A program made the translations under genes and the position numbers. Positions 32,151-58,331 of a stretch of 64,000 nt of DNA are shown piece by piece. The notes beneath the pieces were generated by a model that made no database searches, was not told the origin of the DNA, and saw only the letters and a list, made by a program, of their open reading frames with translations. Position 1 is the first letter of the stretch. Each line of letters begins with the position of its first letter. This stretch comes from Zanthoxylum bungeanum (Eukaryota; Streptophyta; Magnoliopsida; Sapindales; Rutaceae): positions 124,001 to 188,000 of the forward strand of contig SKCR01038878.1 in NCBI GenBank assembly GCA_019454045.1, written 5' to 3'.

Positions 32151-32289
32151 CAGGCCTGAATTTCCCAGATGATGAAAAGAGGAGGAATGTTCAGACCTTG
32201 ATGTGAACACAGTTTACATTCGAACATCCAATGCAATGCAAGTTCTCCTGACAAAACTTAAAACATGTCCAATTGCCCCTGTGGAGCCT

Positions 32290-32545
32290 GAAGATAAAGC
32301 CGTCCTTTTGCACTGAAAAGGCCAATTCTTGCACTACAAGCAACAAAGAGAAAAAAGTTCCACCAGCTCAACGAATTGGAGGAATGTCACAATTAGCCTT
32401 TTGAGGATGCCAAATTGTATAAAGAAAAGGCAAGGAAAAGACATGATTGAAAGTTATCTCATACAACTGGAACCAGGGCAGAATGTACTTTTAAACCATC
32501 CAAAGTTAATTCTTCCCAAATGGAAGCCAAAATCACGGTGGTCAG
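32290..32545 (+). pseudogene. pol: Integrase C-terminal fragment, left half (element F)
   Basis: The frame 32329-32586 includes EPGQNVLLNHPKLILPKWKPKSRWS, matching the PGQKVLL...KSRWSGPF C-terminal block of gypsy integrases. The block is broken exactly after S by element B, and the next bases of the motif (Gly-Pro-Phe) appear at 52201, after the duplicated GTCAG. The frame beyond 32545 is copia LTR and not part of the gene. Confidence 0.75.
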
Positions 32546-37330: not shown

Positions 37331-40300
37331 ATATATGTATTATGTACCACACTAAGTATTTAAAATCCAATTTTAATACTAGTAGTGAACATAACTTTGA
37401 CAAATATTTTAAAGTTAGAGCCTCGCCCTTTCTTTAATTCCTTCGTGTCTTCCATATCCAAATGGTAGTCACTTTGGGATATGTCAATTACCTTTTCAAT
37501 ATTTCACAAACCTTTGGCCAAGCCTTGGGTTTAGAATATCGAAATGATGTGCACCTTGTGCTACATGCCCAATTGCAAACTTTGACTTTTCTCCACTAGA
37601 ATAGTCAATTAATTCTCCAAGATTATTAATTGCAATTTTAATACTTTTAAATCTAAAGATAGATTTATTATAAGTATATTAATTAAGCACTAAAGTCATC
37701 ATCACATAAATCTTCCAAAGACTTTATGCTCTACTATTTGCTTAATTATGGCTTAGTATAATAAGTTATTTTTATTTTATCAAATAAATAAACCTATTAT
37801 TAATTCCCAATTGAAATTAAATCATTTAAAACATTTAATCCAAGGATTATATATTTTAAATATTCAACCTTTTCAATTCTTTCTTGATTTTAATAGTCCA
37901 ACTATTTAATCAATTTATTAAGGTACTATTTATTATAATGATTACAATAATCCAATTATTTAATCAACTATAATTTTAATATTGATTACTATAATCCCAT
38001 TATAAAATCAACTATCATTTAATTCAATTATATTGATTACTATAATCCAATTATAAAATCAACTATATATTGAATGAGTTTGTATATAGTCCAACTATAT
38101 ATATTTTAAAACAACATAAAATATTAGTCCAACTAATACTTTTGATTAATATGACGAGTAAAATATAATGAGCGTGTTTAGCGAGTAATTGAACGAATGT
38201 TGCAAATTCAATACTTGCCTCCCACTATTTTTCGTCGAGCCTCTAACCCTCTGTGGAGTACTCGGGAAACCGTGTTTCCTAGTGGGCTAGGATCCCGTTA
38301 AATAACACACAACCCTGACTTTGGCCAATAAAAGCTGTATGCTATTTAACTAGGTAGATCTCAGATCAATTGGATCTCATCCAATTCCTAGATCCGGTTA
38401 GGTGGACATCCAAGTCCGAAACATATGTATAATGTCAATGTATCCATTACATTTTCCTAACCATATCCTCCGAATCATTAGGCCTTGGCTTTGGCCAAAA
38501 CACAAACCTAATGATTCCAGTTAAGCGGACCCATTGACGAGGAAAGTTTCGTAATCAATGTCATTGGACAAAAGTGATCTGACTTTGGTCAATAAAAATC
38601 ACGATTTGGACAAGACACCGATATGCAAACAACTCTCATGATTCAAGTACATCCTTGATTGACAAAGGTCTTGACTTTGGTCAAAAAAAACCAATGCCAA
38701 CTTCGGATCTTGAACAAGAATCATTCAATGGAAGGATATTTGCTTAATATAGAACGAGGGTTTTTTCGCGTGCAAATTGGCTACCAATTTAATTATCTTT
38801 GTTAGGTCTCATCATCATACACCCTTAAACATGCATTCTAAATACATAATAAAGCGAGTATGAAATAAAATAATAATGATATGCGGATGGATACTTAACA
38901 CATTGATCCTAGATCAAATCTCTCCCTTTCTCACTCAAGCTAGCACTTGTACTACTTCTACCCGTTACACTACACTTCTAAAGAAACCTCATATACATAG
39001 AGGGAATAGGTGAGAAGAGAATACAAAGAGAAAGAAGGTGATAAGGCTGGACACGCAGGTCCAATTTAATAAATCGAATTTATTACAACAATTTCTAAAA
39101 TTGCCCACCCGACTAATATCCATCCGATATACATTATTCATTCAACACAACCACGTATTCACACACATAAGCATGCTATCAATCAATCTAATCAAATTAA
39201 TTAATCTGATAATTAAGTGATCATCCAATGTTCAAACAACGATTTGATTTTGTTCGAGTCAAACTCGTTTTTGCGAATAAGTACTCAAAGTACGAATTCA
39301 TGAATTAAATTAAACTACATCATTAAATCTAATTTAACATGTATTTAATACTAATTCACTATTCAATTCCAAATTAAATATTACACTTTATTTAATAAAC
39401 CTTTTACGATTTAAATTCCAAATCTAATCGTAACGCGTCTCAAAGACCGATTAACGTCCAACGTCAATTCAATTAAAGTCCAATGGGCTTTTGATTGATT
39501 TCTTAAGGCGTGGACTTTTGGTCAACTCGGGTCAAACCGATAACCAAAGTCCAATCCGGGATTTACCCACATAAGCCCATAAATCAATCTTGGCCCATTA
39601 GGCCCAATTGAACATTAAAGGTTCATTAGTCGCAATTGGGCTTTATGGTTAAGGTTTTGGGCCCAATTGGATCCAATCCACTTGGCCTAAACCAAACTTG
39701 ATAAATCAAGCCCAAAAGGCCCAATTACAACATTAAATTCTAATTTCCAAAATTAGGCCCAATTAATTAAATCCAAAAATCCAATTTTCACAATTTAATT
39801 ACCAAAGTGCATTATATGATTAATCGACTAAATCGATATTTCCGAAGCACCAAATTAGTCCAATTAATCATGCTTAATTCATTATTACATGTCAAACCAC
39901 ATAATGAAAAATCAAACCCATTTACATGCTTTCATGCTCTCTCGGCCAAGGAGTGATTTCATGTCCATTTCGGTTTCAATCCAATTAATCCGCAATCGAC
40001 ATTAAATACATCCCGAATGATTTTCAATACATCCAATTATCAAAATCAAAAATTTCCAAGACAACACTAGGGCATATCCAATTCATTCGGCCAACACATG
40101 GATTTTAGGGTTTATGTTCAATTCAAAGTACAATCCAATTGACATTAAATTAACATCATCCTACATGATTTTAACTCATCCAATGAATTAAAATCAACAA
40201 ATTCCAATGATTCAAAATCATTTGCATTCGGCCAAGGCATATAATTTGGGGAAATAATTCCAAATCATTTTTCATCAAATTAGTCCAACCAAAATGAATT

Positions 40301-40403
40301 TAAACATGTTATAAGCATACTCAAACAAACAATTCATTCAAATCATGCTCAACAAACATTTACCCAAATTTTAAACCCTACAAATTTCATGCTTGCAACA
40401 TTA
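37331..40403 (-). other. 5' leader of element B (non-coding)
   Basis: About 3.1 kb between primer site and pol remnant with no gag. Shared with A and with the leader of H. Includes spaced variants of CTTGACTTTGGCCAACAA (about 38311, 38580, 38670) and AT-rich palindromes near 37900-38130. The frame at 39038-39220 is unsupported. Confidence 0.65.
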
Positions 40404-40416
40404 GCTCTTGATGCCA
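40404..40416 (-). other. Primer binding site of element B
   Basis: Minus-strand TGGCATCAAGAGC, one base inside the LTR. It is close to the copia initiator tRNA-Met site TGGTATCAGAGC and identical to the site in A. Confidence 0.75.
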
Positions 40417-40417
40417 T

Positions 40418-42017
40418 TGTTGGTTTTCTATAAGGTCCCAAGATCAAACAAGACATGAAATTATGTGTGAACACATCAACGGAGGTAGCGGAATACTCAC
40501 ATTGATCGGTAGAGTCGATTTGGAGACGATTCAAGCCCAAAACGCACTGCCTTTGTAAGCTCACTGCAGCAGTCCACTGCCCTGCAAACAGAAAATTGGG
40601 TGAAGAAACGGAGCTCCAATCTTCGTCGGATGGATCCCGTCTCATGGGGGAACCTCCCTACCACCTTCGCAAGACTCGTAGTGTGCTAGCACTTGCGGTT
40701 TTCACCATGAAAACCCAACTCTTGCTCCCCTAAACTCACGCCCAAACTGGTTCAAAACCAGTGAAGAATGGCCACCATTACCGTGAGAGAGAGAGAAATT
40801 TTTGAGAGAAAATGTGTTATGTTAATTAAATGATTTACCAAAAATCAATTTATATTTATGCCATAATTTATTAAATTAATAATAAATTTATGACACAACA
40901 CATGCAATAGCTTAGAGTGTCAAACACTCAATTTCCATGCAATAACATTGAGTGCAATGTACACTATCTACATGCAAAGCATTAGAATGACATGTGTCAT
41001 GTGGGCCCCACACGTTTCCAAATGAAAGTGGGCCCACGTGCACTCACGCGTTCGGGTTCGATATTTCCGAAATACCGAGCTTACGTCGCGACGTTAATTC
41101 AATCGAATTTAAATAAATAATTGCGCCTGGCGAAATTATTATTTACGTCGCTAACGAATTAATTCTAAATTAACTCGTTTGCCCGAATTAAAATCTAATT
41201 TTAATTCCGCGTCGAAATCTAATTTCGTTTAATATATCGAATATATTAATTTATCGATTAATTCCAAATTAATCGTTATCTCTCTCTAGACGATTTTATC
41301 CTGGATAAAATATCTCCGTATTAATCCTAGATTAATTTTCTCTCTCTTCTATATAATCCCAGATTATTCAAGAGTGCGAGTTGTGCGTCATCGGTGGATT
41401 ATCGGGAAGCGACCCATGAGATCCCCGGATAATCTGGCAGTAAATACGGTCGTCGGAGTATCCGAATCACGTACGTACCAAGTACTACGTTCTACCGATT
41501 TACGAGACAAGGTTGACTCCTAGCAAAGCACCAAGTCTTCCCAGGTTCTCCGGACATATTCATCAAAGAATATCTAGATCTGTATCAAGCGTAGTATACA
41601 ATTGTATTGTGCATATTGGCCCAGTATCGGATAATCACGTGCTAGGGCTGGGGCTGGATAAGTGTCTGCCCCATCCGAAACACATATCGGATGTCTGGTA
41701 ACTAGTCTCTAATCGGATATTCATGACCTGGTCATAATATCACGATTGGATGCGCATCACTTTAAGAGCCCAATACCGTATCCTGCGTGACAATCATCTC
41801 CATAATGACTGGAGTGACACTTTCCATCTCGACATCACATCCAATACACTACGATTCCTGATAAACCAGAAAGGTGAACACAGAACCATTAAGATCCCCC
41901 ACCACCAAAACCAAAGTTTACCGATTGTCGTAAGTATTAGCGATGTAATTCTCAGGTTAAGACTATACACACCTACCTTGATTTCGGCCCTCCCATAGAC
42001 ACCTGTCATAATACCAA
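40418..42017 (-). repeat. 5' LTR of copia element B, larger part
   Basis: 1600 bp, from the CCAACA end (plus-strand start TGTTGG at 40418) to the insertion point of A. It continues at 51787. The palindrome ladder is at 41058-41367. Confidence 0.9.
41058..41367. repeat. Palindrome ladder in the 5' LTR of B
   Basis: The same series as at 33187-33500, with a few single-base indels. Confidence 0.75.
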
Positions 42018-44104
42018 TGTTGGTAATATGACCCATAGCGTCACTATTTGTACAGATCACGGTGTTGCTGTACAAATTAACTATGTGACAAGGAAATTGC
42101 ACTCTCATCATCATTTGTGATTAGATCACCATAGATGTATAAATGAAGAGAGGTCCATATGATTAGTTCCTGGATTGAGATGATATGAGACAGTATCAAT
42201 CCCGAAGGATTAATCATTAAATATCCCTAGCCGAAGTATTATCGAGACTGGACATCGATAATGCGGAATAGGCTAGTATTGCACTTGTGCGCATTGTGAG
42301 GGCACAACGGCATAGTTCTCATATATATAAGTATTGGATACTTATGCAAGTGCGATAGGAGGTCGTGTTTCACCGATGGTACGGGAAACAGCTTCGCTCT
42401 GGATAGACCCCTCGGAATCCCATTGGTATTATGACTATGTGTCTATGGGAGGCCGAATCGAGGTAGGTGTGTATAGTCTTAACCTGAGACTTACATCGCT
42501 AATACTTGCGATAATCGGTAAACTTTGGTCTTGGTGGTACAGGGCTTTAACCGGTTCTGGGTACACCGCTTCTGGGTTTATCAGAGAGTCGTAGTGTATT
42601 GGGTGTGATGTCGAGACGGAAGTGTCACTTCAGTCATATTGGAGAGATGTCACGCAGGATACGGTACTAGTGCTCTTGAGTGTTGCGCAACCAATCGGGA
42701 TATTGTGACCAGGTCATGTATATCCGATTATAGAGACTATGTTACCAAACATCCGACATGTGTTTCGGACGGGGCAGACACTTATCCAGCCCCAGCCCTA
42801 GCACGTGATTATCCGATACTGGGCCGATATACACAATACTACGGTATACTACGCTTGATACAGATCTTAATATTCTTATGAGAATATATCCGGAGAATTG
42901 GGAAGACTTGGTGCTTTGCTAGGAGTCGACCTTGTCTCGTAAATCGGTAGAACGTAGTACTTGGTACGTACGTGATTCGGATACACCGACGACCGTATTT
43001 ACTGCCAACATATCCGGGGATCTCATGGGTCGCTTCCCAAAGATTCACCGATGACGTATGACTCGCACTTATATTAATCTGGGATTAATATGATGAGAGA
43101 GAGAATTAATCTGGGATTAATTTCGGAGACATTTTATCTAGGATAAAATATCAATTGAAGAGAGAGAAACATTGATTTGGAATTAATCGAGGAATTAATA
43201 TATTTGATATATTAAACGAAATTAGATTTCGACGCGGAATAAAATTAGATTTTAATTCGGGCGAGCGAATTAATTTAGAATTAATTCGTTAGCGACGTGA
43301 ATAATAATTCCGCTAGGCGTAATTATTTAATTCTCGTCGCGACGGAAATTAGTTAATTCGGAATTAGCGAATTTGGGCCCGAAAGTGTTTGCGGACACAT
43401 TCGTATTTTGAAACGGGTGGAATCCGCAAATCACCGCGATATCTCATTACTTGACACGAATAGATGATGGATGTATCTAGTCACCTTTGAGGGATGATAC
43501 ATTGTCTCTATTCTCAAAAGAGGTAATGATGGCATATAATGAATTTTAAAAAGGTGATGTGTGTTTTTGGGAATAAAACCCAAATGTGTTTGAAATGAAT
43601 TTCAAATGAAATTCAAATGCATTTGATGCATAAAGTAAAACACAAAACCGTATACACACAACACTTCATTTTCCCTCCTCTCTCTCTTCTCTTCTTCTCC
43701 TCTTCTCTCTCACGACATTTCTGGTTTTGCAAGGCAGTGAACTGCCGAATTTAAGAAGCAAAATGGAGGGAAGCAAGTGTGTTTTGTGGCAAAACAAGAG
43801 TGCTAGCACACTCCGGGATCATGCCAAGGTGATAAGGGAAGTATACCCATGAGCAAGGAACGTTTTGATGAAGCTTGGAGCTCGTTTTTCTTGATCAAAA
43901 TGGCACAAAACAGAAGCCAAAATCTGCAGCAGTGGGCGCACTTGACAGTGACTGCCGTGAGCAGTGGCAGTGGGCAGTGAGTTCGTTTTTTGTGCCAAAT
44001 CGCATCTCAACACCGCTCGATGTAAGTATTCCGCACTTAAATCGTTGTATTCGCTTATGATTCATGCTTGAGTTTTGATCTTGGGACCTCTAGAAACTCC
44101 AACA
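42018..44104 (+). repeat. 5' LTR of element A
   Basis: Starts TGTTGGTAATATGACCC and ends AAACTCCAACA. Its last ~700 bp differ from the LTRs of B and C (a CTCTCT-rich stretch at 43670-43710, ACTGCCG repeats), marking a subfamily. The 86-codon frame 42334-42594 recurs in the 3' LTR and is not a gene. Confidence 0.92.
43071..43373. repeat. Palindrome ladder in the 5' LTR of A
   Basis: Includes ATATTAATC/GATTAATAT centre TGG (43071-43091), ATTTTATC/GATAAAAT centre TAG, TAATATAT/ATATATTA centre TTG, CGAATTAATT/AATTAATTCG centre TAG, and a final imperfect palindrome centred on CGG (43347-43373) whose arms differ from those in C. Architecture is kept while bases change. Confidence 0.82.
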
Positions 44105-44105
44105 A

Positions 44106-44118
44106 TGGCATCAAGAGC
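44106..44118 (+). other. Primer binding site of element A
   Basis: TGGCATCAAGAGC, one base after the LTR; same as in B. Copia initiator tRNA-Met type with changes. Confidence 0.78.
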
Positions 44119-45998
44119 ATAGGTTAAAAGCATGAAAAATGTTAGGGCTAAAATTTGGGCAAACTTGAATTTGAGCATGATAAATGAAATTGGATGGATT
44201 TGTATGCTTAATTGTGTTTGTATTGAAGATTGATTATGTCAATTTGAAGAAAATATGATTGGATCAATTTTTCCCCAAATTGCTACCTTGGCCGAAATTG
44301 ATATTGATTTTATGTCTTGGGATTTTTGATTTTTGACAATTGGAAGTGTTGGAAATCATTCGGGATGATGATTTAACGTCAATTGCGGAATCAATTGGAT
44401 TGAATTCGATTTGGACGAAAAATCCCCAAATTGCCAAGTATGTCATGAAACTTTAAATTGGGTAAAATTGATTTAAGCATGCAATTATGAAATTGGATGA
44501 TTAAGTATGCTTAATACATGTTTTAATTGATGATTGGTTGGATCAATTTGATTAAATATTGTTTGGAACAAATTTCCCCAATTTTGATGTGTTGGCCGAG
44601 AGTTATGCCCCTTTGTGTTCTTGGTGAATTTTGATTTTTGAAACATTGGATGTGTTGAAAATCATTAGAGTATATTGATTTAATGTCGAATTGGGTTTAA
44701 TTGGATTGAAACAAATCGGACATGTAATTAACCTTATTGCCGAGAACAAAGTGAGCATGTAATGGGTTTGATTTTAATCTTAATATGTTGGACATGTGAT
44801 GATGAAATTGAGTATGATTAATTGGACTAATTTAGTGTTTTGGAAATGTTGATTTAGTTGATTAATCATGTAATGCACTTTAAGTAATTAAATTGTTAAA
44901 TTGGATTTATGTAATTTAATTATTTGAGGCCTTAAATTGGATTTGGGCTTCTAATGTTGTAATTGGGCCTATTGGGCTTGATTTTATCAAGTTGGGTTTG
45001 GGGCAAATGGATTGGATCCAATTGGGCCCAAAACCTTAACCATAAAGCCCAAATGCAACTAATGGACCTTTGTAATTTAATTGGGCCTAATGGGCCAAAA
45101 TTAATTTAAAGGCTTATGGGGTAAATCCCGGATTGGACTTTGGTTGCGGGTTTGACCCGAGTTGACCAAAAGACCACGCCTTAAGAAATTAATTAAAAGC
45201 CCATTAGACTTTAATTAAATTAATATTGGATATTAATCGGGCTTTGAGACCCGTAGCGATTAAATTTGGAATTTAAGTCGAAAAAGGTTTATTAATAAAG
45301 TGTGATATTTAATTTGGAATTAAATAGTGAATTAGAATTAAATACAAATTGAATTGGATTTAATTGTGTAGTTTAATTTAATTCGGGAATTCGTACTTTA
45401 AGTACTTATTCGCAAAAACGAGTTTGACTCGAACAAAATCAAATCGTTGTTTGAACATTGGATGATCACATAATTATCAGATTAATTAATTTGATTAGAT
45501 TGATTGATAGCATGCTTATATGAGTGAATACATGGTTGTGATGCATGAATAATGTATATCGGATGGATATTAGATGGGTGGGGCAATTTTAGAAATTGTT
45601 GTAATAAATTTTCGATTTATTAATTGGACCTGCGTGTCCAGCCTTATCACCTTCATTCTCTTTGTATTCTCTTCTCACCTATTCCCCTCTATGTATATGA
45701 GGTTTCTTTAGAAGTGTAGTGTAACGGGTAGAAGTAGTACAAGTGCTAGCTTGAGTGAGAAAGGGAGAGATTTGATCTAGGATCAATGTGTTAAGTATCC
45801 ATCCGCATATCATTATTATTTTATTTCATACTCGCTTTATTATGTGTTTAGAATGCATGCTTAAGGGTGTATGATGATGAGACCTTAACAAAGATAATTA
45901 AATTGGTAGCCAATTTGCACGCGAAAAACCCTCGTTAAATATCATGCGTTTTTCCTTCCATTGAGTGATTCTTACTCAAGATCCGAGATTGGCAGGGG

Positions 45999-46372
45999 TT
46001 GTTGGCCAAAGTCAAGCCCTTGTCCATCAAAGATGTGTTTTAATCACGAGGCTTTGTTCCATATCGGTGTCGTGTCCAAGTTGTGGTTTGTTGGCCAAAG
46101 TCAAGACCACTTCTTGTCCATTGACATTGATTACGAAGCTTCCATGTCAATGGGTCCGCGCTTGACTGGGATCATTAGGTTTGTTGTGCCAAAGCCAAGG
46201 CCTAGTTGATTCAGAGGAAAAGGTTAGGATATACATTCGATGTATAGGCATATATAAGATATATGTTTGGGACTTGGATGTCCACCTACTGGATCTAGGA
46301 GTTGGATGAGATCCAATTGATCTTCGAGATCTACCTAGTTAATTATCATACAATTTGTTGGCCAAAGTCAAG
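45999..46372 (+). repeat. Spaced copies of an 18-mer in the leader of A
   Basis: TTGTTGGCCAAAGTCAAG occurs exactly at 45999-46016, 46088-46105 and 46355-46372, with a variant near 46180. The same word in reverse occurs three times in the leader of H (62569, 62832, 62923). Confidence 0.85.
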
Positions 46373-46546
46373 ATTGTGTGATATTTAACGGGATCCTAGC
46401 CCACTAGGAAACACGGTTTCCCGAGTACTCGACAGAGGGTTAGAGGCTCGACGAAAAATAGTGGGAGGCAAGTATTGAATTTGCAACATTCGTTCGAATA
46501 CTCGCTAAACGCGCTCATTTAATTTATTTCGTCGTTATATTAAATG

Positions 46547-46855
46547 TTAGTTAGACTAATATTTAAATTGTTGTTTTAATAAACAGTTGGACTGTATTAT
46601 ACTTGATTATATATAATTGGATTATATTAATCAATATATTTGAATTAATTAATTTCAGTTTACAGTTGATTTTATAATTGGATTATAGTAATCAATGTAA
46701 TTGAGGTTAATTAATTTGGATTATATTTGATTATATAGTTGGACTATTATAATCATTATAATATATAAAGTACCACTAATCGTTGATTAAATAGTTGGAC
46801 TATTGTAATCAAGATAAAATTGAAAAGTTGGATATTTAAAATATAATCTGGGATT
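46547..46855. repeat. Cluster of TGG/TAG-centred palindromes in the leader of A
   Basis: TTAGT/ACTAA centre TAG (46547-46559); ACAGT/ACTGT centre TGG (46583-46595); ATATAAT/ATTATAT centre TGG (46611-46627); TTATAAT/ATTATA centre TGG (46672-46687); ATAGT/ACTAT centre TGG (near 46740); AATAGT/ACTATT centre TGG (46790-46804); AATC/GATT centre TGG (46845-46855). The same three-base-centre design as in the LTR ladder. Confidence 0.8.
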
Positions 46856-47389
46856 AAAATATTTTAAATGATTTAATTTTCAAATTGGGAATAAATAATA
46901 GGTTACTTTATTTGATAAAATAACTTATTATACCTTAAGCCCAAAATTAAGCAATATAAGTAGAGCATAAAATCTTTGGAAGATTCATGTGATGATGACT
47001 TTAATGCTTAATTTAATATACTTGTCATAAATCTAATTTTTGGATTTAAGAAGTATTAAAATTGCAATTTATAATTCTTGGAGAATTAATTGACTATTCA
47101 TGTAAAGTCAAAGTTTGCAATTGGGCATGTAGCACGAGGTGCACATTCCTTCATATTCTAAAACCCAAGGCTTGGCCTAAGGTTCCTAAAATATTGAAAA
47201 GGATAATTGACATATCCCAAAGTGACTACCATTTGGATATGGAAGACACGAAGGAATTAAAGAAAGGGCGAGGCTCTAACTTTAAATATGTTTGTCTTAG
47301 TTATGTTCACAGCTAGTATTGAAATTAGATTTTAAATACTTAGTGTGGTACATAAAATATATGTATTGATATTCAGAATCTGCTTTGAG

Positions 47390-49690
47390 CAGGATACTGA
47401 CTTCAAGCTGAGATTCCTCTGCGAATCGGAAACGGGACGAAAGTCGCTGTTTCGACCGTAGATACCTAAGTTTAGGAACTAACCTGGGGTGTGTACTTAA
47501 ATTAGGAACTGTTATAATGTAACTAGTTTGACTAGAAACATTATCTCTTTATCAGTGTTTAACCCACTGCGGGTGAACCTTTATATTCTAAAACACTAAA
47601 GTGTTTTATTATATAAGATGATACTGAGATAAATACATTAGATGTAAATAACAGAATTTATATTTTGAATATAATAAAATCTCAAACATATAAATGACAA
47701 ATTAATAGCTCAAATTGATTTGATCAATAGAGACTTATTTATGGCATTGTTGTCTAGGACACAATTAAACGAGACATGTCAGTTAGACGGTGTGTCCGAA
47801 CTAAAACCGAATTTTGTTGGACATGATAAGGTTTATCACGAGTCGCTCTGAGCTATCATTTCCTTCAAACAGGATATGTATTAACAGTGCAAAACTTATT
47901 TAGAATAAGGTTCCATGTAAATCTGTTTGACAGATATCGTATAGGATATGAACGGAAAGAAACTGGGTTTCTCATTCCTAACAATTTGGGTATGCCAGGC
48001 ATAAAGTTTGGATGATACCAAACTAAGAACCCAAATTGGATTAGTGCCAATATAGGTTATCCTAAGGGAAACCATAAGTATAGTACTTATAAATCCCACA
48101 TGAGAACAATGTGATTGTTGCTCACCATGCGGTTTTCCTGAGAGGAATACCGATATGCAGTGGTCAGTGGGAGGATAGTGATACTCGATGAAAATCGGAG
48201 TAATACTATTCAAGGCACGAAGTCCGTAATGGAACACAAATAGTTCATCTATGATGAATCTATACCATTAATCTTCAAATACACAAGAAACCGCGTAGAT
48301 CAGAGAGAGTCAGAAAACAACCTGGGGTATGGGTTTCTGATCTCACCTCATAAAGATTTTAATCTTTTAAGGTACACCAACTGATTACGTATGAGGTAGT
48401 GATACACGGTATCGACTCCCTATTATGGCAAAGTGCCATGAATCGAAAATGGATTCCATGTTTAACAACTATTTTGGATACTAGTTGTTGTACCACAAGG
48501 CATTGTGCCTATGGTACATTAAACGTCTTCAAGGAAGACATACATGGAAGGCAACATACCAACGTACAAAGCTGGGCTTTTGACGGAAAGGTATCGTTAT
48601 CAACATTGTGTTAATAACGGTTCAACCTTTTACCTGTTGCCATGGTAAATCCATTTTGAAGATGCTTGTTGATAACTGCGTATTTCATTTATGAAATGTG
48701 TCAGTTACAGATCAAAATCGCTTTCCTGAAAAGGAAACCTTTTGGAGGATGTTTTCAACATCCTGACGATTTTATATAACCGACAAACAAGGTTTGCGGG
48801 TTATTCGATCCACGTTTGGATCAATGCAAGCATAAGGTTCTTGGAACTGTCGTTTTGAAATAATCATAATGATTTATGATTTAATTCAAAACGAAATAAT
48901 TCTTGTGTATATAAGGAGGTTAGTGGGAGATTGCACTAACAGTGAAATTCCCATAAAGCAATTGGTGAAAGCTTGGCTTTCATAGAAATTCTCCGTAGAA
49001 TTCTAGGGAGTAACAACCTTTATTCAAGGAATAAAGATCTACTGGGATAGATTTGGAGTTTGTTAACACTCTCTGGGAAATTGTACATTTAAAATGTACT
49101 TGTATTGGTGTCTCATATGCTTTGAGCATATGGAGTCACAATCGAGTCAATCCAAGTGATAGTCACTGGATTGAAATTAAGAACATCTGTTAGTATCTGA
49201 GAGAACTAAAGATGTTGTCTTAAACTATGGAGATAGAGAACTTGAAGTGACTGGGATCACTGCTGCAAGTTTCCAAACCGGTAAATACTGCGGTACTATA
49301 AATTTGAACACTGGGACAGTGAGCTGGAAATCTTCCTAGCAAGATAACTGTTGCCGAATAACAACAAATGCGGATTATTGCTGCAGCTGAGGCAGCAATA
49401 GAAGCCATTTGGATCGATAATAAATCTAATTAGATTAGATATAGTTCTGTTAGCAGCTGAGCTAGGCGTCAGCACAGGCTAAAGAATTAAAGGTCTCATC
49501 GACGATCCAGATATATACTTCTATATCATCTGATTCGTTCGGATCATACATCGTGGCGATGTGATGATCGTGTAAATCGCGTCAGACGATAATTAAGCAA
49601 ATCCGCTGACGAAAACCTTTCCTCAGCAATTTGAGCGAATTGTACATAGTTCGAGTGTTAGACACTCGAGTGACTGGCTATGTGCCAAGT
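47390..49690 (+). pseudogene. pol: Decayed copia pol of element A
   Basis: Colinear with C, but about 425 bp of integrase are missing. At 47760-47790 the zinc-finger region jumps to the part near the integrase end, and the breakpoint lies at a short GAGAC-like word present on both sides in C. RT and RNase H parts are full of stops. No gene product is expected. Confidence 0.8.
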
Positions 49691-49697
49691 GGGAGAT

Positions 49698-51786
49698 TGT
49701 TGGATAATATGACCCATAGCGTCACTATTTGTACAGATCACGGTGTTGCTGTACAAATTAACTATGTGACAAGGAAATTGCACTCTCATCATTTGTGATT
49801 AGATCACCATAGATGTATAAATGAAGAGAGGTCCATATGATTAGTTCCTGGATTGAGATGATATGAGACAGTATCAGTCCCCGAAGGATTAATCATTAAA
49901 TATCCCTAGCCGAAGTATTATCGAGACTGGACATCGATAATGCGGAATAGGCTAGTATTGCACTTGTGCGCGTTGTGAGGGCACAACGGCATAGTTCTCA
50001 TATATATAAGTATTGGATACTTATGCAAGTGCAATAGGAGGTCGTGTTTCACCGATGGTACGGGAAACAGCTTCGCTCTGGATAGACCCCTCGGAATCCC
50101 ATTGGTATTATGACTATGTGTCTATGGGAGGCCGAATCGAGGTAGGTGTGTATAGTCTTAACCTGAGACTTGCATCGCTAATACTTGCGATAATCGGTAA
50201 ACTCTGGTCTTGGTGGTACAGGGCTTTAACCGGTTCTGGGTACACCGCTTCTGGGTTTATCAGGGAGTCGTAGTGTATTGGGTGTGATGTCGAGACGGAA
50301 GTGTCACTTCAGTCATATTGGAGTAGATGTCACGCAGGATATGGTACTAGTGCTCTTGAGTGTTGCGCAACCAATCGGGATATTGTGACCAGGTCATGTA
50401 TATCCGATTATAGAGACTATGTTACCAAACATCCGACATGTGTTTCGGACGGGGCAGACACTTATCCAGCCCCAGCCCTAGCACGTGATTATCCGATACT
50501 GGGCCGATATACACAATACTACTACGTATACTACGCTTGATACAGATCTTAATATTCTTATGAGAATATATCCGGAGAATTGGGAAGACTTGGTGCTTTG
50601 CTAGGAGTCGACCTTGTCTCGTAAATCGGTAGAACGTAGTACTTGGTACGTACGTGATTCGGATACACCGACGACCGTATTTACTGCCAACATATCCGGG
50701 GATCTCATGGGTCGCTTCCCACAGATTCACCGATGACGTATGACTCGCACTTATATTAATCTGGGATTAATAAGATGAGAGAGAGAATTAATCTGGGATT
50801 AATTTCGGAGACATTTTATCTAGGATAAAATATCAATTGAAGAGAGAGAAACATTGATTTGGAATTAATCGAGGAATTAATATATTTGATATATTAAACG
50901 AAATTAGATTTCGACGCGGAATAAAATTAGATTTTAATTCGGGCGAGCGAATTAATTTAGAATTAATTCGTTAGCGACGTGAATAATAATTCCGCTAGGC
51001 GTAATTATTTAATTCTCGTCGCGACGGAAATTAGTTAATTCGGAATTAGCGAATTTGGGCCCGAAAGTGTTTGCGGACACATTCGTATTTTGAAACGGGT
51101 GGAATCCGCAAATCACATCGCGATATCTCATTACTTGACACGAATAGATGATGGATGTATCTAGTCACCTTTGAGGGATGATACATTGTCTCTATTCTCA
51201 AGAGAGGTAATGATGGCATTAATGAATTTAAAAAGGTGATGTGTGTGGTTTGGGAATTAAAACCCAAATGTGTTTGAAATGAATTTCAAATGAAATTCAA
51301 ATGCATTTGATGCATAAAGTAAACACAAAACCGTATACACACAACACTTTCATTTTCCCTCCTCTCTCTCTTCTTCTTCTTCTCTCTTCTCTCTCACGAC
51401 ATTTTCTGGTTTTGCAAAGGCAGTGAACTGCCGAACAGAAGCAAAAATGGAGGGAAGCAAGTGTGTTTTGTGGCAAAACAAGAGTGCTAGCACACTCCGG
51501 GATCATGCCAAGGTGATAAGGGAAGTATACCCATGAGCAAGGAACGTTTTGATGAAGCTTGGAGCTCGTTTTTCTTGATCAAAATGGCACAAAACAGAAG
51601 CCAAATCTGCAGCAGTGGGCGCACATGACAGTGAACTGCCGTGAGCAGTGGCAGTGGGCAGTGAGTTCGTTTTTGTGGCCAAATCGCATCTCCACCGCTC
51701 GATGTAAGTATTCCGCACTTAAATCGTTGTATTCGCTTATGATTCATGCTTGAGTTTTGATCTTGGGACCTCTAGAAACTCCAACA
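49698..51786 (+). repeat. 3' LTR of element A
   Basis: 2089 bp, preceded by the purine tract AAGTGGGAGAT (49687-49697). Starts TGTTGGATAATATGACCC and ends CTCCAACA. It differs from the 5' copy by few substitutions and single-base or triplet indels. The palindrome ladder is at 50753-51056. Confidence 0.92.
50753..51056. repeat. Palindrome ladder in the 3' LTR of A
   Basis: The same ladder as at 43071-43373, ending in the CGG-centred imperfect palindrome at 51028-51056. Confidence 0.82.
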
Positions 51787-52197
51787 CCCAATGGGATTTC
51801 CGAAGGTCTATCCAGAGCGAAGCCTGTTTCCCGTACCATCGGTTAAACACGACCTCCTATCCCGCACTTGCACAAGTATCCATACTTATATAATGAGACT
51901 ATGCCGTTGTTCCTCACAAGCGCACAAGTGCAATACTAGCCTATTCCGCATTATCGATGTCCAGTCCTCGTAATACTACGGCTAGGGATATTTAAATGAT
52001 TAATCCTTCGTGACTGATACTGTCTCATTCATCTCAATCCACCAGGAACTAATCATAGGGACCTCTCCTTCATTTATAATCTAAGTGATCTCATCACAAA
52101 AAAGAGAGTGCAATTTCCTTTCCTTGTTACATTTAATTTGCTACAAACAACACAATGTCTGTGCAAATAGTGACGCTATGGGTCATTTTGTCCAACA
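51787..52197 (-). repeat. 5' LTR of copia element B, remaining part
   Basis: Continues the LTR interrupted at 42017 and ends with the TGTTGGACAAAATGACCC start at 52197. Compared with 34144-34557 it has an unusually high number of single-base indels, many in homopolymers. Confidence 0.88.
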
Positions 52198-52380
52198 GTC
52201 AGGTCCTTTGTGATCACCAAGGTTTTACCAGACAGAGCCGTTGTACGTGATCCTAAATCCACAAAACTTTCAAGGTTAAACAAGCGTATCACACTACTGG
52301 GAGAATCATTTGAGCGACAAAAAAATAAAGTGTCCTACTTTCAGATCCAGCCTAACATTCGAGAAGTCACCGTCTAGCTG
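52198..52380 (+). pseudogene. pol: Integrase C-terminal fragment, right half (element F)
   Basis: Begins with the duplicated GTCAG and continues the SRWS-GPF motif with GPF, VITKVLPDRAVV and SRLNKRITLL after a 1-base deletion. This is the end of the gypsy integrase C-terminal domain. Together with 32290-32545 it fixes the position of the B insertion. Confidence 0.72.
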
Positions 52381-52403
52381 ACGACGTTAACTTAGGGCTC
52401 GCA

Positions 52404-52424
52404 GGGAGGCAACCCATGCAATTT
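52404..52424 (+). other. Conserved post-integrase motif (F)
   Basis: GGGAGGCAACCCATGCAA, also at 13518 in E. It lies just after the integrase stop, as in related plant gypsy elements I recall. Confidence 0.7.
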
Positions 52425-52476
52425 GTGTATATATTGTGATCTGTTGTGTTTTATTTTTGTGTGTTTTACTTTTTGC

Positions 52477-52478
52477 AG
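52477..52478 (+). promoter_or_regulatory. Candidate 3' splice site before the unknown frame
   Basis: A T-rich run then TTTTTGCAG/GT, 13 bases before ATGATGG. It fits a plant acceptor consensus. Predicted by eye. Confidence 0.35.
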
Positions 52479-52491
52479 GTAAAGTCATTTC

Positions 52492-52713
52492 ATGATGGAA
52501 GAAGCTTGCAAATCTTCACAAGCAATTTCTCCTCTCTCCCTCAAAATCTCTGATGAAAGTCTACAAAGCTCGCTTGAACGGATGAGGTTACTGAGGATCA
52601 AAGGTATTCCTACTGACATTTGTTGGATTATTGAAGCACGGGTCCGATTGCAGGTGAGTCTTCTGACTCTTTTATTTCACATCTGCCTGGTTAGGAAGGA
52701 GCACTTATGCTAA
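52492..52713 (+). CDS. Unknown small frame 1 between integrase and LOG (F)
   Basis: 73 codons starting MMEEACKSSQAIS. The first 54 residues look protein-like (LQSSLERMRLLRIKGIP, then CWIIEARVRLQ). After codon 54 there is CAG/GTGAGT, a strong 5' splice-site consensus (52651-52659), and the rest reads like intron. A possible acceptor TTATTTAG lies at 52780-52787. Joining them would not keep the phase of the next frame, so either the intron is wrong or a 1-base change has occurred. Not recognised. Most of it is lost in element E. Confidence 0.35.
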   Translation: MMEEACKSSQAISPLSLKISDESLQSSLERMRLLRIKGIPTDICWIIEARVRLQVSLLTLLFHICLVRKEHLC

Positions 52714-52789
52714 AAGAGAAGAGCCAAAAGAATTTGTGTTTGTTATAAATGTGCTGTATTTTTGTGATACTCATTGTCGTTATTTAGGA

Positions 52790-53035
52790 ATGGTGTCTGA
52801 TAACCGGGAAGATAAGATTAATTTCATTAGGGATGACTTGAGTAAGGAGTCTTTGGATGATATATCTAAAACTCTTGAGACGCATCCCAATGGATATGTG
52901 TATCACAAAATTCGTTTGTTATATGCACAATTTCAAAAAGAAAGACAACATTTAAGTCTTGGGAATCTGACTCAAAAAGACTCTGTTTGCCAATTTATAA
53001 GAAAATTAGATAGGAAGCTTGTCCCTGACGCATAG
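52790..53035 (+). CDS. Unknown small frame 2 between integrase and LOG (F)
   Basis: An 81-residue frame from MVSDNREDKINFI to KLDRKLVPDA; highly charged, with predicted helices and no motif I know. The LETHP segment (about residues 29-33) has a trace in E near 13712, showing that this gene belongs to the family and is not a chance frame. It may be the second exon of the preceding frame. Position between integrase and 3' LTR is where Tat/Athila elements carry extra genes. Confidence 0.4.
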   Translation: MVSDNREDKINFIRDDLSKESLDDISKTLETHPNGYVYHKIRLLYAQFQKERQHLSLGNLTQKDSVCQFIRKLDRKLVPDA

Positions 53036-53178
53036 ACGTCAATCAAGCCGCTACTTTTCTTGTACATATTATATCTCTTTGTCTTTTCTTAATAATTGTA
53101 ATTTGTTTTGTTGTTTTCTTTTATTTTCTCCAACAGGATCCATACCTTTTTGACTATCACGATTTCTTTTACTATTAA

Positions 53179-53199
53179 CTAATAATTGTCATTTGGCAG
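53179..53199 (+). promoter_or_regulatory. Conserved branch point and 3' splice site before LOG (F)
   Basis: CTAAT at 53179-53183 and CAG at 53197-53199; TAATAATTGTCATTTGGCAG is identical in E. It could give a spliced mRNA with LOG as first frame. A second possible acceptor TTTTCAG/GT is at 53228-53235, also shared with E. Confidence 0.45.
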
Positions 53200-53237
53200 G
53201 TACTAGTGCTATTATTTTACTCACCCTTTTCAGGTGT

Positions 53238-53244
53238 TATAAAT
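53238..53244 (+). promoter_or_regulatory. TATA-like element before LOG (F)
   Basis: TATAAAT 41 bases before the start codon, followed by TCAACTCATCATT. The same block lies at 13935 in E. Either a captured core promoter or chance in an AT-rich leader. Confidence 0.35.
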
Positions 53245-53285
53245 TCAACTCATCATTGCACTTTTGAAGACATCCAGAGTAAAAC

Positions 53286-53939
53286 ATGGAAGCCACTTCA
53301 AGAAGACGAGTTGTAAACATCTGTGTGTTTTGCGGTACTAGTGTTGGTGTTAAGCCACAATACGTAGAAGCAACACAAGAATTGGGTCGAGTCTTAGCTG
53401 CAAGGAATATGCACTTAGTATATGGCGGAGGCAATCTTGGACTAATGAGGATCGTTTCAAAGGCCGTACAGGAAGGAGGCAGTCACATTTTGGGAATCAT
53501 CCCAAAACCTTTGGCAGAGGCAAATCTTATTGAACCATCAAACGGAGAGGAACTGATCGTGCCAAGTATGTCTGAACGATTGGTAGAAATGATTAACCGT
53601 GCTGATGCTTTTATTGTTTTGCCAGGTGGTTTGGGCACATTAGAGGAAATTTTTACAGTGTTATCTTGGGCGAACCTGAACATACACCAGAAACCGCTTG
53701 GACTGTACAACGTTGAAGGATTTTATGATTTTCTTTGTGTGTTTCTTGATGATGCTCGGAGAAATGGGTTCGTGTCAAAACCTTTAAAAGAACTCTTCTT
53801 CACTGCCAGAACTGCTCCGGATCTAATTGAGCAAATCTTAGCCTATGAACCACAAGTTGACCCTATCCTTTCAAAGTTAAATTGGTCCGAGGACGATCGT
53901 GGTAAGAGGCGTCTGATTAATCTGGATCTTAACCTTTAA
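53286..53939 (+). CDS. LOG: LOG-like cytokinin riboside 5'-monophosphate phosphoribohydrolase, carried by gypsy element F
   Basis: 217 codons, full length for a plant LOG (about 210-225). LOG enzymes release active free-base cytokinin from its ribotide in one step. Seen: VCFCG-type N-terminus with NICVFCGTS (11-19), Rossmann motif YGGGNLGLM (46-54; usual form YGGGSIGLM), SERLVEM with Arg98, PGGLGTLEE (113-121) with the catalytic Glu, and SKLNW near the end. Arg98 and the Glu pair that family knowledge marks as catalytic are present; the Lys usual after that Arg is Leu. The tail DDRGKRR...LDLNL is unusual. There are no introns although plant LOG genes normally have several, so it probably came from a spliced mRNA. 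The start ATGGAAG has A at -3 and G at +4. Paralogue: broken copy at 14001-14651 in element E. Confidence 0.93.
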   Translation: MEATSRRRVVNICVFCGTSVGVKPQYVEATQELGRVLAARNMHLVYGGGNLGLMRIVSKAVQEGGSHILGIIPKPLAEANLIEPSNGEELIVPSMSERLVEMINRADAFIVLPGGLGTLEEIFTVLSWANLNIHQKPLGLYNVEGFYDFLCVFLDDARRNGFVSKPLKELFFTARTAPDLIEQILAYEPQVDPILSKLNWSEDDRGKRRLINLDLNL

Positions 53940-54001
53940 CTTTTCGTGTAGAATTTCAGTTAACCAGGTACTATCTTCTAAACTATTCTTCTATTGTTTA
54001 A

Positions 54002-54037
54002 GACATTGGGGACAATGTCTCATTTAGGTTTGGGGGA
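54002..54037 (+). other. Hairpin and purine motif downstream of LOG (F)
   Basis: GACATTG/CAATGTC hairpin around GGGA, then TTTAGGTTTGGGGGAG. The same as at 14714 in E, about 62 bases after the LOG stop in both. Confidence 0.6.
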
Positions 54038-54487
54038 GGGAATTAGTTGATCAATTTCTTGTTTTTAGTTGTGTGTTGTTTTTATTTTTACTCCAAAATT
54101 TTTCAAAAAAAACAAAAAAATTGAAATTTTTTCAAAAATTACAAAAATATTTTGCGTTTTTGTGTTTTTATTTTGACTAAAAAGGTGAAATTGGTGAGAG
54201 ATAGCTGTGTAAGGAGTTTCCACTCCTGAGACGTATCTCAAACCTAATTCGGAACAAGTTAATTTTGTTTATTTCATTTTAAATTATTTAATTTATAAAT
54301 TCTCCATAAAACTGACTAAAATGGATCTTCATATGCTCAGTTGGCAGGTATTATCAACATGCATAGTAACATACGAACATGAGCTAAAATTGAAAAGTTC
54401 GTAATATTCAGTGCTCTAGTTTAATTGGAGGAAGCATCTAAAAAAGTGATGGAGTAAAAAAAAAACATCTGAGATCCGTGTTATTAA

Positions 54488-54691
54488 GTCCGTAGGGGTG
54501 TTTTAACACCTAGTGCCCTAAAGCCAACTGGTTTGGGAGTCACTGGCCCAAAGCTCGCTACATGGATCAAAGATGATGCAAATATATATATATATATCTG
54601 AAGTCTGAGTATTAAGTCCGTAGGGGTGTCTTAACACCTGGTGCCCTAAAGCCAACTGGTTTGGGAGCCACTGACCCAACACTCGCTACAT
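54488..54691 (+). repeat. Duplicated 75-bp hairpin block before the 3' LTR (F)
   Basis: Copies at 54488-54563 and 54616-54691, with GGTGTT/AACACC hairpin and the GTGCCCTAAAGCCAACTGG stretch. The same pair as at 15223-15426 in E. Confidence 0.8.
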
Positions 54692-55255
54692 AGACGTAAG
54701 ATATTGTATATAAATAAAAAAAAAATCAAAGAAAAAATCAGAAAAATCAGAAAAATTATTCCATTGCTGCAAAAAGGTGTGAATTCTGATAAAACTTTAG
54801 GACACAAATATTACTCTCTTATCAACTGCACTTATGACTGTTGTGGGCAAAAATGAGTTGTTTAATATTTTGTTTGCTATGTATATGGAGAATGGTAAAT
54901 ATAATCGGAGAATTTACTTATTCAATAATTTAGAAATAAAGAAAACAACTAGTAACTTGGAGTAGAAGTTTCACCTGATTAGTCACTAACTTCTTTATTC
55001 TATTTTCTCTTGTCTTTTTGCTTTTGTGTGCATTAGTTTCACTACCTTTTTACTTTTGTAAAATGTTTGTGGGTATCATTGATGTAAACCCTCACGAGAC
55101 TACAACTCGTCCACTAAGGACACCTAGGGGTTTAAAGGCTTGTTGCATATGCTAAATGCAACTGTGATCCCTACGGAAGTGGCTTAGTTAAATTTTATTT
55201 TAAAGATGTTAATGTTATTTTACTCTATGTTTTGCTAGAGGACTAGCAAAATGTT

Positions 55256-55268
55256 AGGTTTGGCGGTG
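55256..55268 (+). other. Polypurine tract of element F
   Basis: AGGTTTGGCGGTG directly before the 3' LTR start. It contains one C that the E copy lacks. Confidence 0.6.
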
Positions 55269-56354
55269 TGATGAGTGGTAATTATATCACCATTTCCCAC
55301 TCATTTAACCTAATATTTTGTATAGTTTCTTGAGTTTTATGAATATTTTGATGTGTTTTGTATTATTGTGTAGATAAATAAAGTTTCAGGACATTCTGGA
55401 GGTGATTTGTGGCCAAAATAGTGAAAAACGGACAAAAGGGCATTTTCTTCATTTCGCGTGTTGCGACGCGCCAGCCTTGCGAGTCGCGACGCCTAACATG
55501 CACCAAGACTTGCTAACGTGCGCCGAGTCCACAAGTCAGAATCTTAGAAGTTTGACTTTGCTAACATGCGCCGTGCCACGTGTCACCATCACAGCCGATT
55601 TGCTAACGTGCGCCATGCCACGTGTCATCATCCTACGGCGACGACAGTCGCTATCCCCATGTGCCGCCACGTGTCACTCCACGTCATCATCCACATCACC
55701 AGTTGACCGAGTCAAAGTGCCACGTCATCACCAAGTCATAATTAGCCAATCACAGCATGCCATGTGTCATCATTCTATGGTGCCGACAGTCACTTTCGCC
55801 ATGTGTCGCCACGTCAGCTCAATCATTCAGCTCCCAGCCGCCTTGCCACGTGTCACATTATCACCTTATCCAGAATCCACTGTCGAGCTCTCAGCACTCT
55901 ACGTCGACAATCACGGGGGTCGCGACGCGAGGGCGAGGGGGGTCACCGAGGCCTATAAATAAAGCTCGAAATTTCAGTGTCAGATGCACCTTCTCTCTAA
56001 TTCTCGATTGATGTAAATAGGGAGTTTTCTATCTAGTTCTTTTAATTTCAGTTTTGTAATTAATTTTAATTACGGTTATATAATAGTTAATAGTAATAGA
56101 ATTACTTTCTTTACTTTTTACAAGTTTTTACTATCAACCATTGAGGAGTGGTGGTAACTTCCCCCTGCTAGGTGTGAAGATTGAAAGGTAAGTCTTTACT
56201 ATGCTATTTAGATTAATCTCCCTTAAATATAATATATTCACATTAAAAATATTGACTTATGAGGATACCGCCATATTGGTCGTGGGTAAGTCATTTTAAT
56301 ATGGTTCAAACCTGACTAATCAGGAGGATACCGCCAGATTAGGCAGTTGGTAAT
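55269..56354 (+). repeat. 3' LTR of element F, truncated by H
   Basis: Starts TGATGAGTGG. CACGTGTC sites at 55577, 55619, 55668 and 55847. A GGCCTATAAATAAAGC promoter-like stretch lies near 55950. Two ACCGCC... motifs at 56277 and 56330 are diverged relatives of the phased array in E. It ends at 56354, where copia H starts; GTAAT (56350-56354) should be duplicated at the far side of H, outside the window. The 186-codon frame 55402-55962 lies in the LTR and is not called. Confidence 0.82.
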
Positions 56355-58331
56355 TGTTGGTTTCTATAATATGTCCCAAACAAAGATTAAGCATGTGAAA
56401 TACTATAAAGAATATATATGAACATGAAGTATGGCGGAATCATACTTACAATGCCTTGTGATGAAGTAGATGATCAAATGGTAGAAGCTCCAAGTGGTGG
56501 AGATTCGGCCAAGAGGAGGAAGAAGACTTGAAGCTCCAAGCTATTGTATTCCAAGCTCTTTGATGGTTTCCCTATCACCTCTTTTGATCCCTTGCTTGTG
56601 CTAGCAAAAATGGAGAAATGGAAGATCAAATCTTCCTTGCCCTTGTCAATGGAGTTCACGGCAATTTGAGAGAGAAGAGAGAGTTTTTTGTGTAATGTCT
56701 TGATTAATTAATTTTTGTATTACCAAAAATCAATTTATATTTATGTTATAATTATTAAATTAATATAAATCTATGACATAAACCATGCAATGGCTTAGAG
56801 TGTCAAACACTCAAACTCCATGCAAAGCCTTTGAGTGAAATGCACACTATCACCATGCAATGCCTTAGAGTGTTTTGTACACTATTAACATGCAATGCCT
56901 TATCAATAAAATAATGCATATAATGACAAGTGTCATGTGGGCCCCACACGTTTCCCAATGAAAGTGGGCCCACGTCCACTCACGCGTTCGGGTTCGATAT
57001 TTCCGAAATACCGAGCTAGCGTCGCGACGTTAATTAAATCGGATTTAAATAAATAATCGCTCCTAGCGAAATTATTATTTACGTCGCTTACGAATTAATT
57101 CTAAATTAACTCGTATGCCCGAATTAAAATCTAATTTTAATTTCGCGTCGAAATCGAATTTCGATTATTATATCGAATATAATAATTTTATCGATTAATT
57201 CCAAATTAATCGTTCTCTCTCTCTGAATAAGGCACTTTATCCGAGATAAAGTTTCTCCGCAATTAATCCAAGATTAATTAAGTTCGAATCAAATATCATA
57301 GGTGAATCTTCAGGAAGCGACCCAAGAGATCTCCGGATATTTTGGCAGTAAATACGGTCGTCGGATAATCCGAACACGTACGTACCTCGTACTACGTCTT
57401 TACCGATTTACAAGACAAGGTTGGCTTCTAGCAAAGCGCCATGCCTACCCAATTCTCCAGAAATATTCTTATAGGAATATAAGATCTGTATCAGGCGTAG
57501 TATACCGTAGTATTGCGTACATCGATCCAGTATCGGATGATCACATGCTAGGCCTAGGGCTGGAGATGTGTCCCCCCGTACGAAACATATATCGGACATC
57601 AAGCAACTAGTCTCTTTAAATCGGACAATCCTGACCTGGTCATATTGTCCCGACGGTTGCAACCTTTTATAGAGTACTAGTTCTGTGCCCTGCGTGATCA
57701 TCGCCTCCATATGTCTGAAGCGATACTTCCATCTTGACATCACATCCAGTACACTACGCTTCTCGATAAACCCAGAAGAGGTGTACACAGAACCGGTTAA
57801 GGTCCCCAACCACCAAAACCAAAGTTTACCGATTGTCGCAAGTACTAGCGATGTAAGTCTCAGGTTAAGACCATATACACCTACCCTGATGCGGCCTCCC
57901 ATAGACACATAGACATACTACCAATGGGATTCCGCGGGGGGTCTATCCAGAGCGAAGAAGCTGTTTTCCGTACCATCGGTAAAACACAACCTCCTATCGC
58001 ACTTGCATAAGTATCCAATACTTAAATATATGAGAACTATGCCGTTGTGCCCTCACAACGTGCACAAGCGCAATACTAGCCTATTCCGCATTATCGATGT
58101 CCAGTCTCGATAATACTACGGCTAGGGATATTTAATGATTAAACCTTTATGGATTGATACTGTCTCATATCATCTCAATCCAGTACTAATCATATGGACT
58201 TTTGCCATTTATATTCAAAGTAAAAAAAATTACAAAACGGCAAAAGGCAATTTCATTATCACATAGTTAATTTTGTACAATAATACAATATCATTTACAA
58301 ACAGTGACGCTATGGGACATAATGTCTAACA
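56355..58331 (-). repeat. 3' LTR of copia element H
   Basis: 1977 bp. Minus-strand start TGTTAGACATTATGTCCC at 58331, end CCAACA at 56355. Diverged from the LTRs of A/B/C but colinear. The palindrome ladder is at 56993-57279. The 166-codon minus frame at 57408-57908 is LTR sequence, not a gene. Confidence 0.9.
56993..57279. repeat. Palindrome ladder in the LTR of H
   Basis: Includes TCGATATTT/AAATACCGA centre CCG; ACTTTATC/GATAAAGT centre CGA (57234-57252); AATTAATC/GATTAATT centre CAA (57261-57279). In element sense the centres are CGG, TCG and TTG. The second differs from ATTTTATC/GATAAAAT of A/B/C by a paired T-A to C-G change. Confidence 0.8.

Follow-up and report, generated by a model that had tools for sequence, protein, structure and literature searches.

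Within the window (the whole stretch of 64,000 nucleotides that was analysed), a Ty3/gypsy element, referred to here as F, carries an open frame for a LOG-family protein. The explanation that best covers the observations as a whole, and that we regard as probable, is that this frame belongs to an Athila-like lineage as a resident accessory gene, i.e., a captured and constrained LOG that may encode a hydrolase with an altered substrate. Plant LTR elements are, to our knowledge, usually thought to need gag and pol only, and here an enzyme of hormone metabolism is an old and constrained element gene that numbers many thousands of copies and persists in polymerase-less derivatives. If the enzyme were active, bursts of the element would alter the dosage of an enzyme of growth-hormone or nucleotide metabolism and, if its substrate had changed, it would represent a natural case of a mobile element rebuilding a host enzyme.

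The LOG frame and the element that carries it

The features referred to below are the following, in window coordinates.

10301-17884, plus strand: second LOG element, with LTR matches at 10301-12087 and about 16004-17884 (93-95% identical)
14001-14645, plus strand: LOG of the second element, belonging to a different subfamily (53% identical), its frame broken and containing one stop
30895-31801, plus strand: to the left of F, pieces resembling the LTR and the 3'UTR/LTR junction, in rearranged order (matching 55269-55929 and 55119-55351)
31800-32545, plus strand: left part of F, i.e., the region after gag and the start of the pol C-terminal remnant (matching 4979-5719 of copy L014)
32546-52197, no strand assigned: nested insertion of ~19.65 kb inside F, made of several elements, with ends TGTTGG...CCAACA and a 5-bp target duplication, GTCAG
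52198-53285, plus strand: remainder of the pol C-terminal remnant, plus spacer from the integrase end to LOG, F DNA resuming at 52198 after the insertion
53222-53233, plus strand: putative 3' splice acceptor CACCCTTTTCAG, 52 nt 5' of the LOG ATG, with no intervening ATG
53286-53939, plus strand: LOG frame of F, ATG to stop, 217 aa, with R98, E121, PGGLGTLEE at 113-121, S96, L99, T124 and a GKRR...LDLNL tail
53940-55268, plus strand: 3' untranslated region of F (~1.3 kb), between the LOG stop and the LTR
55269-56355, plus strand: 3' LTR of F, beginning TGATGAGTGG; similarity to other copies stops at 56355

The product of the LOG frame matches the profiles PF03641 (1.3e-35, 122.9 bits against a cut-off of 27) and TIGR00730 (7.3e-49, 165.9 bits against a cut-off of 96.35), as well as the Arabidopsis LOG structure 2a33 (4.4e-56), and scores 111.1 bits, below the cut-off of 300, with NF058542, the equivalog profile of cytokinin-activating LOGs. 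Its predicted fold has a mean pLDDT of 84.9, with residues 1-4 and 204-217 below 50; the best Foldseek match is 2a33 (E 3.0e-21), and the solved structures closest to it are those of the Arabidopsis LOGs 2a33 and 1ydh. The PGGxGTxxE signature is present as PGGLGTLEE, together with the catalytic Arg and Glu (R98 and E121), just as the initial annotation had read it, and across 38 F copies the catalytic Arg is found in 37 and E121 in all 38. Position 55, in the GGGxxGLMG motif, is Arg in the window copy and, in the 37 other copies, Arg (6), Gly (30) or Trp (1). Frame, profile, fold and position together confirm that an Athila-like element carries an open 217-codon LOG frame, located after its integrase end and before its 3' LTR. 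That lineage name, which is probably appropriate, comes from reverse transcriptase motifs and an earlier report.

The same annotation described the LOG frame as standing next to a broken pol, and this stands only in part. No full gag-pol order was found in the window for F: only a pol C-terminal remnant is present, with pol residues 831-910 located by tblastn at 32307-32544 in its left part. Copy L014, whose own pol was found only from residue 817, is matched without break by 31800-32545 plus 52198 onward, and this contiguity indicates that the region from reverse transcriptase to the integrase core is absent from F rather than merely broken. Downstream of the insertion, 52198-55378 is contiguous with five compared copies at 88-92%. 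As for the remaining parts, the nested insertion contains two near-identical stretches (42018-44104 and 49698-51786, 97.9%), and the 3' untranslated region of F holds an imperfect pair of 107-nt repeats (54482-54588 and 54610-54716, 86%), with a similar pair in 10 of the 17 long copies.

The primer-binding site adjoining the 5' LTR, TGGCGCCGTTGCCGGGGA, which we take to be typical of Athila/Tat and to fit tRNA-Asp, is exact in three of the seven copies examined (L014, L020 and L022) and one base shorter in L018, whereas an exact search gave none in L012, L015 or L019, nor any for F within the window. In three copies, about 1.75-2.1 kb separate the LTR start from this site. A pyrimidine-run-CAG acceptor-like site lies within 75 nt 5' of the LOG ATG in 28 of 39 upstream regions, at 52 nt in 19 of them, and it is followed by no ATG in 27 of those 28.

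In the second LOG element of the window, a site resembling a primer-binding site, TGGTGCCGTTGCCGGGGA, follows the 5' LTR. The gag and pol queries matched nothing inside it (10301-17884), and an ORF at 12661-13311 has no Pfam match; by eye, this ORF resembles that of a third class of elements described below (copy L017).

Copies in the genome and element classes

The genome searched comprises 3.956 Gb in 51,709 contigs. With the window LOG protein as query, every one of the 150 places scored, out of 70,234 first-look candidates, matches, the 149 other ones at 88-94% identity along the whole protein or lacking just its final residue, which excludes chance. The pattern PGG[LF]GT[LF]EE, carried by 37 of the 38 F copies, has 18,429 exact matches genome-wide (9,187 and 9,242 per strand) against 0 for the reversed control, and more than one codon style is seen among the first hundred pattern places listed. 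With a probe from the 3' untranslated region (54780-55260), each of the 40 places scored, out of 4,317 candidates, reached at least 95%. If all pattern matches lay in elements of 9-10 kb they would make up ~4-5% of the genome, and many of them may be fragments. The proposal that LOG frames would be found beside element sequence elsewhere in the genome is thereby borne out, other copies carrying the same frame with element flanks, and it is on the motif matches with their empty control, plus the uniform result at the scored places, that we take LOG to be a gene of the element. Two observations made along the way are that copies L049 and L050 carry PGGYGT in place of PGGLGT, as canonical LOGs do, by chance reversal or gene conversion, and that a 180-kb contig holds a damaged plastid matK fragment (C40003:160540-161640, L051), for which the closest entries listed are Zanthoxylum and other Rutaceae (86% over 72% of the query), so that Rutaceae is probably the host family.

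Besides the window copy, 37 copies were read: 17 at 10 kb (ranks 2-18 by similarity to the window LOG) and 20 at ~3 kb (ranks 19-38, one of them ending at a contig end). The gag and pol queries were the frames of one copy, identified by the Pfam families Retrotrans_gag, RVT_1, RT_RNaseH and rve; in the related copy L022 these four domains, arranged in gypsy order, score over their cut-offs, and RVP_2 under its own (18 against 20.3). Three kinds of element can be told apart among the 17 long copies. Six are of an autonomous type, with pol matches covering much of the stretch from reverse transcriptase to integrase, and in three of these gag lies inside the stretch read. Eight are pol-deleted, with gag but with pol only from about residue 817, and it is this kind that F resembles. 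The remaining three form a third class, in which the gag and pol queries located no capsid and no pol apart from one weak gag match at 26%; an ORF of ~310 codons is found in two of these copies and shorter ORFs in the third, none with a significant Pfam match. The two ~310-codon ORFs are at L017:5219-6145 and L028:3821-4750, and clear LTR pairs are seen in L017 and L027. Two LTRs could be recognised in 10 of the 17 long copies (90.6-98.9% identical), and in 9 of these 10 LOG is open through codon 217. LOG is, then, retained in forms without a detected reverse transcriptase or integrase core.

Do the pol-less forms constitute one old branch with a LOG of its own? The LOG tree does not support this, as it mixes the element classes: 15 changes of class are needed where 3 would be possible, against a shuffled mean of 17.7, and a value as low was obtained in 13 of 200 shuffles, i.e., the classes are only slightly clustered. 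Such mixing would fit exchange between elements by template switching. Recombination may in this way refresh LOG in the pol-deleted forms, so that selection measured within those forms would not be independent.

Active site and C-terminal tail

Arg99 and Glu122 are the proposed catalytic residues, Met96, Lys100 and Glu121 make up the adenine site, and a proposed prenyl site of Met96, His97, Lys100, Glu125 and Trp129 is identical in CgLOG, AtLOG3, OsLOG and CpLOG (passages of PMC4979012). The window LOG keeps the Met and the Trp of the prenyl site, and the other three of its five residues are changed (His97 to Ser, Lys100 to Leu and Glu125 to Thr). The same holds across the 38 F copies, with Ser at the His97 site in 36, Leu at the Lys100 site in 38, and Thr (21) or Ile (17) at the Glu125 site. 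At the sites compared, all 13 canonical rows read Met, His, Arg, Lys, Glu, Glu, Glu and Trp, and the 35 element-type rows have the catalytic Arg in 32, the catalytic Glu in 35, His97 in 19, Lys100 in 6 and Glu125 in 6. The rows bearing Lys100 are those of Xanthoceras and Acer plus two further rows, and they branch first in the clade.

A cytokinin-activating role is uncertain, as these residues of the adenine and prenyl pocket are altered and the window copy also has the Arg at position 55. A true cytokinin-activating LOG, which is how the initial annotation took it and by which the element would raise active cytokinin and keep cells dividing or meristematic, and hence favour its transmission through the germ line, is a doubtful reading, to which the family membership, the predicted fold and the catalytic Arg and Glu lend weight, as does the retention of Lys100 and Glu125 in the early-branching Acer and Xanthoceras members of the clade. 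It has to contend with the substitutions at the three pocket positions in nearly every F copy, at a site invariant in four LOGs, and with alanine exchanges of AMP-binding and catalytic residues that, S19A excepted, nearly abolish activity (passages of PMC4979012). Judged from these residues, a LOG-fold hydrolase with an altered substrate would be at least as likely as an intact cytokinin-activating enzyme, and it is the role that we tentatively assign to the protein.

The C-terminus also distinguishes the element-type proteins. A basic cluster is present in 35 of 35 element-type rows and in 0 of 13 canonical ones, a strict LxLxL in 26 of 35 and 0 of 13, respectively, and LxLxL falls within the last nine residues in 32 of the 38 F copies, a sequence that agrees with the EAR consensus as given in passages of PMC9956375. 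This would suit a non-catalytic use, in which the nucleotide-binding LOG fold carries a nuclear EAR-type tail that recruits co-repressors or hinders silencing, all the more with the tail predicted to be disordered (pLDDT below 50 at 204-217). We consider such a use rather improbable, for a pure scaffold would not need the catalytic Glu and Arg that the element-type rows largely keep, and LxLxL is a short motif, easily met, whose binding of co-repressors is putative. Bolder still, and to our minds improbable, would be that the captured hormone enzyme has become a new element protein, its pocket rebuilt for another nucleotide and its tail leading it to the nucleus and to co-repressors, where it would reshape nucleotide metabolism or silencing; on that reading, the polymerase-less forms must still carry LOG, as if it served their own copy.

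Selection on the LOG frame

Selection was assessed on 38 aligned LOG frames (the window copy and the 37 others), omitting 45 sites with more than two states, and these 37 copies are the ones ranked highest for protein similarity to the window LOG, a choice that favours conserved frames. Variants seen once comprise 62 nonsynonymous and 33 synonymous changes and 7 stops, those seen twice also look neutral (15 nonsynonymous, 7 synonymous and 1 stop), and those common to at least three copies show 23 nonsynonymous and 40 synonymous changes with no stop. The contrast with the singletons has p=5.8e-4 for variants in at least three copies and p=0.007 for those in at least two, and with CpG-type sites removed the counts of nonsynonymous and synonymous changes are 55:29 for singletons and 18:31 for shared variants. 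For LOG read in its two wrong frames the p values are 0.71 and 0.19, and the variants of at least three copies then include 7 and 6 stops (none in the true frame); a non-coding control of three regions in three frames each gives p from 0.016 to 1, with one of nine below 0.05. Within the 17 long copies the contrast in LOG is weak (36 nonsynonymous to 33 synonymous once, 5:11 twice and 17:23 shared), and for gag and pol the coverage was too low at every site for this comparison.

The ratios of nonsynonymous to synonymous divergence, which the initial annotation had proposed to compute between copies, point the same way. Pairwise dN/dS is 0.26 within the autonomous-type class, 0.20 within the pol-deleted one and 0.19 within the third, and between the F copies and the LOG of the second element dN is 0.25 and dS 1.39 (near saturation), for a ratio of 0.18 (range 0.14-0.22, n=38). 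Frames running from ATG to the usual stop number 25 of 38; by class, LOG is open through codon 217 in 8 of 14 autonomous-type, 12 of 16 pol-deleted and 5 of 7 third-class copies, the 20 short loci having been classed by similarity of the region 5' of LOG, with some assignments close. These open-frame fractions are too favourable because the sample was ranked by similarity to the window LOG. We read these counts as suggesting that changes arising after insertion are near neutral and that the lineages still replicating are purged of amino-acid changes, so that LOG appears to be kept by natural selection across copies, in a sample biased to conserved frames. The open frame of the window copy had been taken as a hint of constraint by itself, and this does not hold: with 4 private sites, and an end branch of about 18 changes in the tree, it would be open by chance with a probability of 0.28-0.84, depending on the stop fractions used.

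That LOG is a neutral passenger of a successful element would explain the near-neutral singletons with their 7 stops, and LTR elements are on record as having captured host genes (passages of PMC7264820). We nevertheless hold it to be very improbable in view of the shared variants, whose pattern is lost in the wrong frames, the low ratio between subfamilies, and the extent to which the clade has preserved the length of the frame and, for the most part, its catalytic residues; the passenger and any other reading taken together are left with a small share of the probability.

The host's own LOG genes were found neither with the pattern PGGYGTLEE, which occurs at 4 places genome-wide, the two of them that were read being element copies, nor with a Citrus LOG7 query, for which all 150 scored places (the best of 59,288 candidates) are nearly full-length at 51-53%, most of them open frames of about the length of the element LOG. 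Host LOG genes must exist in the plant, as general knowledge has it, and yet that the frame is an ordinary host LOG gene beside transposons is practically negligible as an explanation, the frame being intronless and recurring at the 150 scored places and in the 17 long copies, with element flanks wherever a copy was read, and the motif having 18,429 matches.

Origin and proposed course of events

A tree was built of 50 rows, i.e., the window protein, 47 chosen from two protein-search listings of 120 rows each and two Arabidopsis LOGs, with the tandem rows and most partial-length rows left out. The listings contain many single-frame LOGs of ~217 aa, including Populus, Xanthoceras, Acer and Reevesia records, and the tree separates the 35 element-type LOGs, as a single clade, from the 15 canonical plant LOGs (support 100/100 and 200/200 bootstraps, 100%). 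The canonical set consists of LOG7-type rows and the two Arabidopsis LOGs, and for this reason the donor LOG cannot be named. This has a consequence for annotation, as the element-type clade takes in a Populus gene named LOGL10 and annotated genes from Xanthoceras, Acer and Reevesia. Three Xanthoceras proteins (P0019, P0035 and P0121) are annotated with two LOG copies, or parts of copies, in tandem. In viral contigs, 26 stretches with the pattern were found, and no relative was among them. Outside the window genome, the clade rows would be element genes on the strength of passages of PMC9289625 for Citrus and Populus.

On the resident-gene explanation favoured here, a single capture of an intronless plant LOG cDNA would have taken place before the lineage spread through rosids or at an early stage of that spread. 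The captured gene would then have gained the basic LxLxL tail, Lys100 and Glu125 being lost later from the adenine/prenyl pocket with the catalytic pair kept. This order, tail first and pocket later, is suggested by the tree. An internal or spliced transcript of the element would make the LOG-type hydrolase, which would still split base from ribose in a nucleoside 5'-monophosphate but accept a changed range of substrates, and the cell may thereby be shifted, in its cytokinin or purine-nucleotide state and possibly in the nucleus, toward conditions that favour the element.

Comparison with known systems

Compared with AtLOG3 (2a33) and the LOG7 orthologues, the element LOG shares the fold, the PGGxGTxxE signature and the catalytic Arg and Glu, but it has Leu instead of Tyr in PGGxGT, its His97, Lys100 and Glu125 are replaced, it bears the basic LxLxL tail and it is intronless here. 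Steinbauerova et al. 2011 reportedly found two Athila-like elements similar to LOGL4. The initial annotation knew of no LTR element carrying LOG, a view that has to be given up, given that a YgdH/LONELY GUY domain is already recorded in Gypsy consensuses of Citrus sinensis, C. clementina and Populus trichocarpa in passages of PMC9289625, which call the finding consistent with Steinbauerova et al. 2011. Those consensuses are, like the elements described here, LTR Gypsy with a LOG-family domain, and Citrus is probably of the host's own family, Rutaceae; however, these passages deal with the presence of the domain only, to which copy number, selection, the pocket and tail changes, the pol-less forms and the single clade are added here. 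LOG in LTR elements does not appear in the passages of PMC4979012, PMC7264820, PMC11963269 and PMC13317346. Elements with a LOG are thus themselves already known, and what is added here is the altered active site, the tail, the selection and the retention without pol, none of which appears in the papers cited. Another known Gypsy family also retains a host-type enzyme domain, although the enzyme and the plants are different. Plant TR-GAG and other non-autonomous LTR elements have lost pol and retained gag, as the pol-deleted forms described here have, but the latter keep LOG too.
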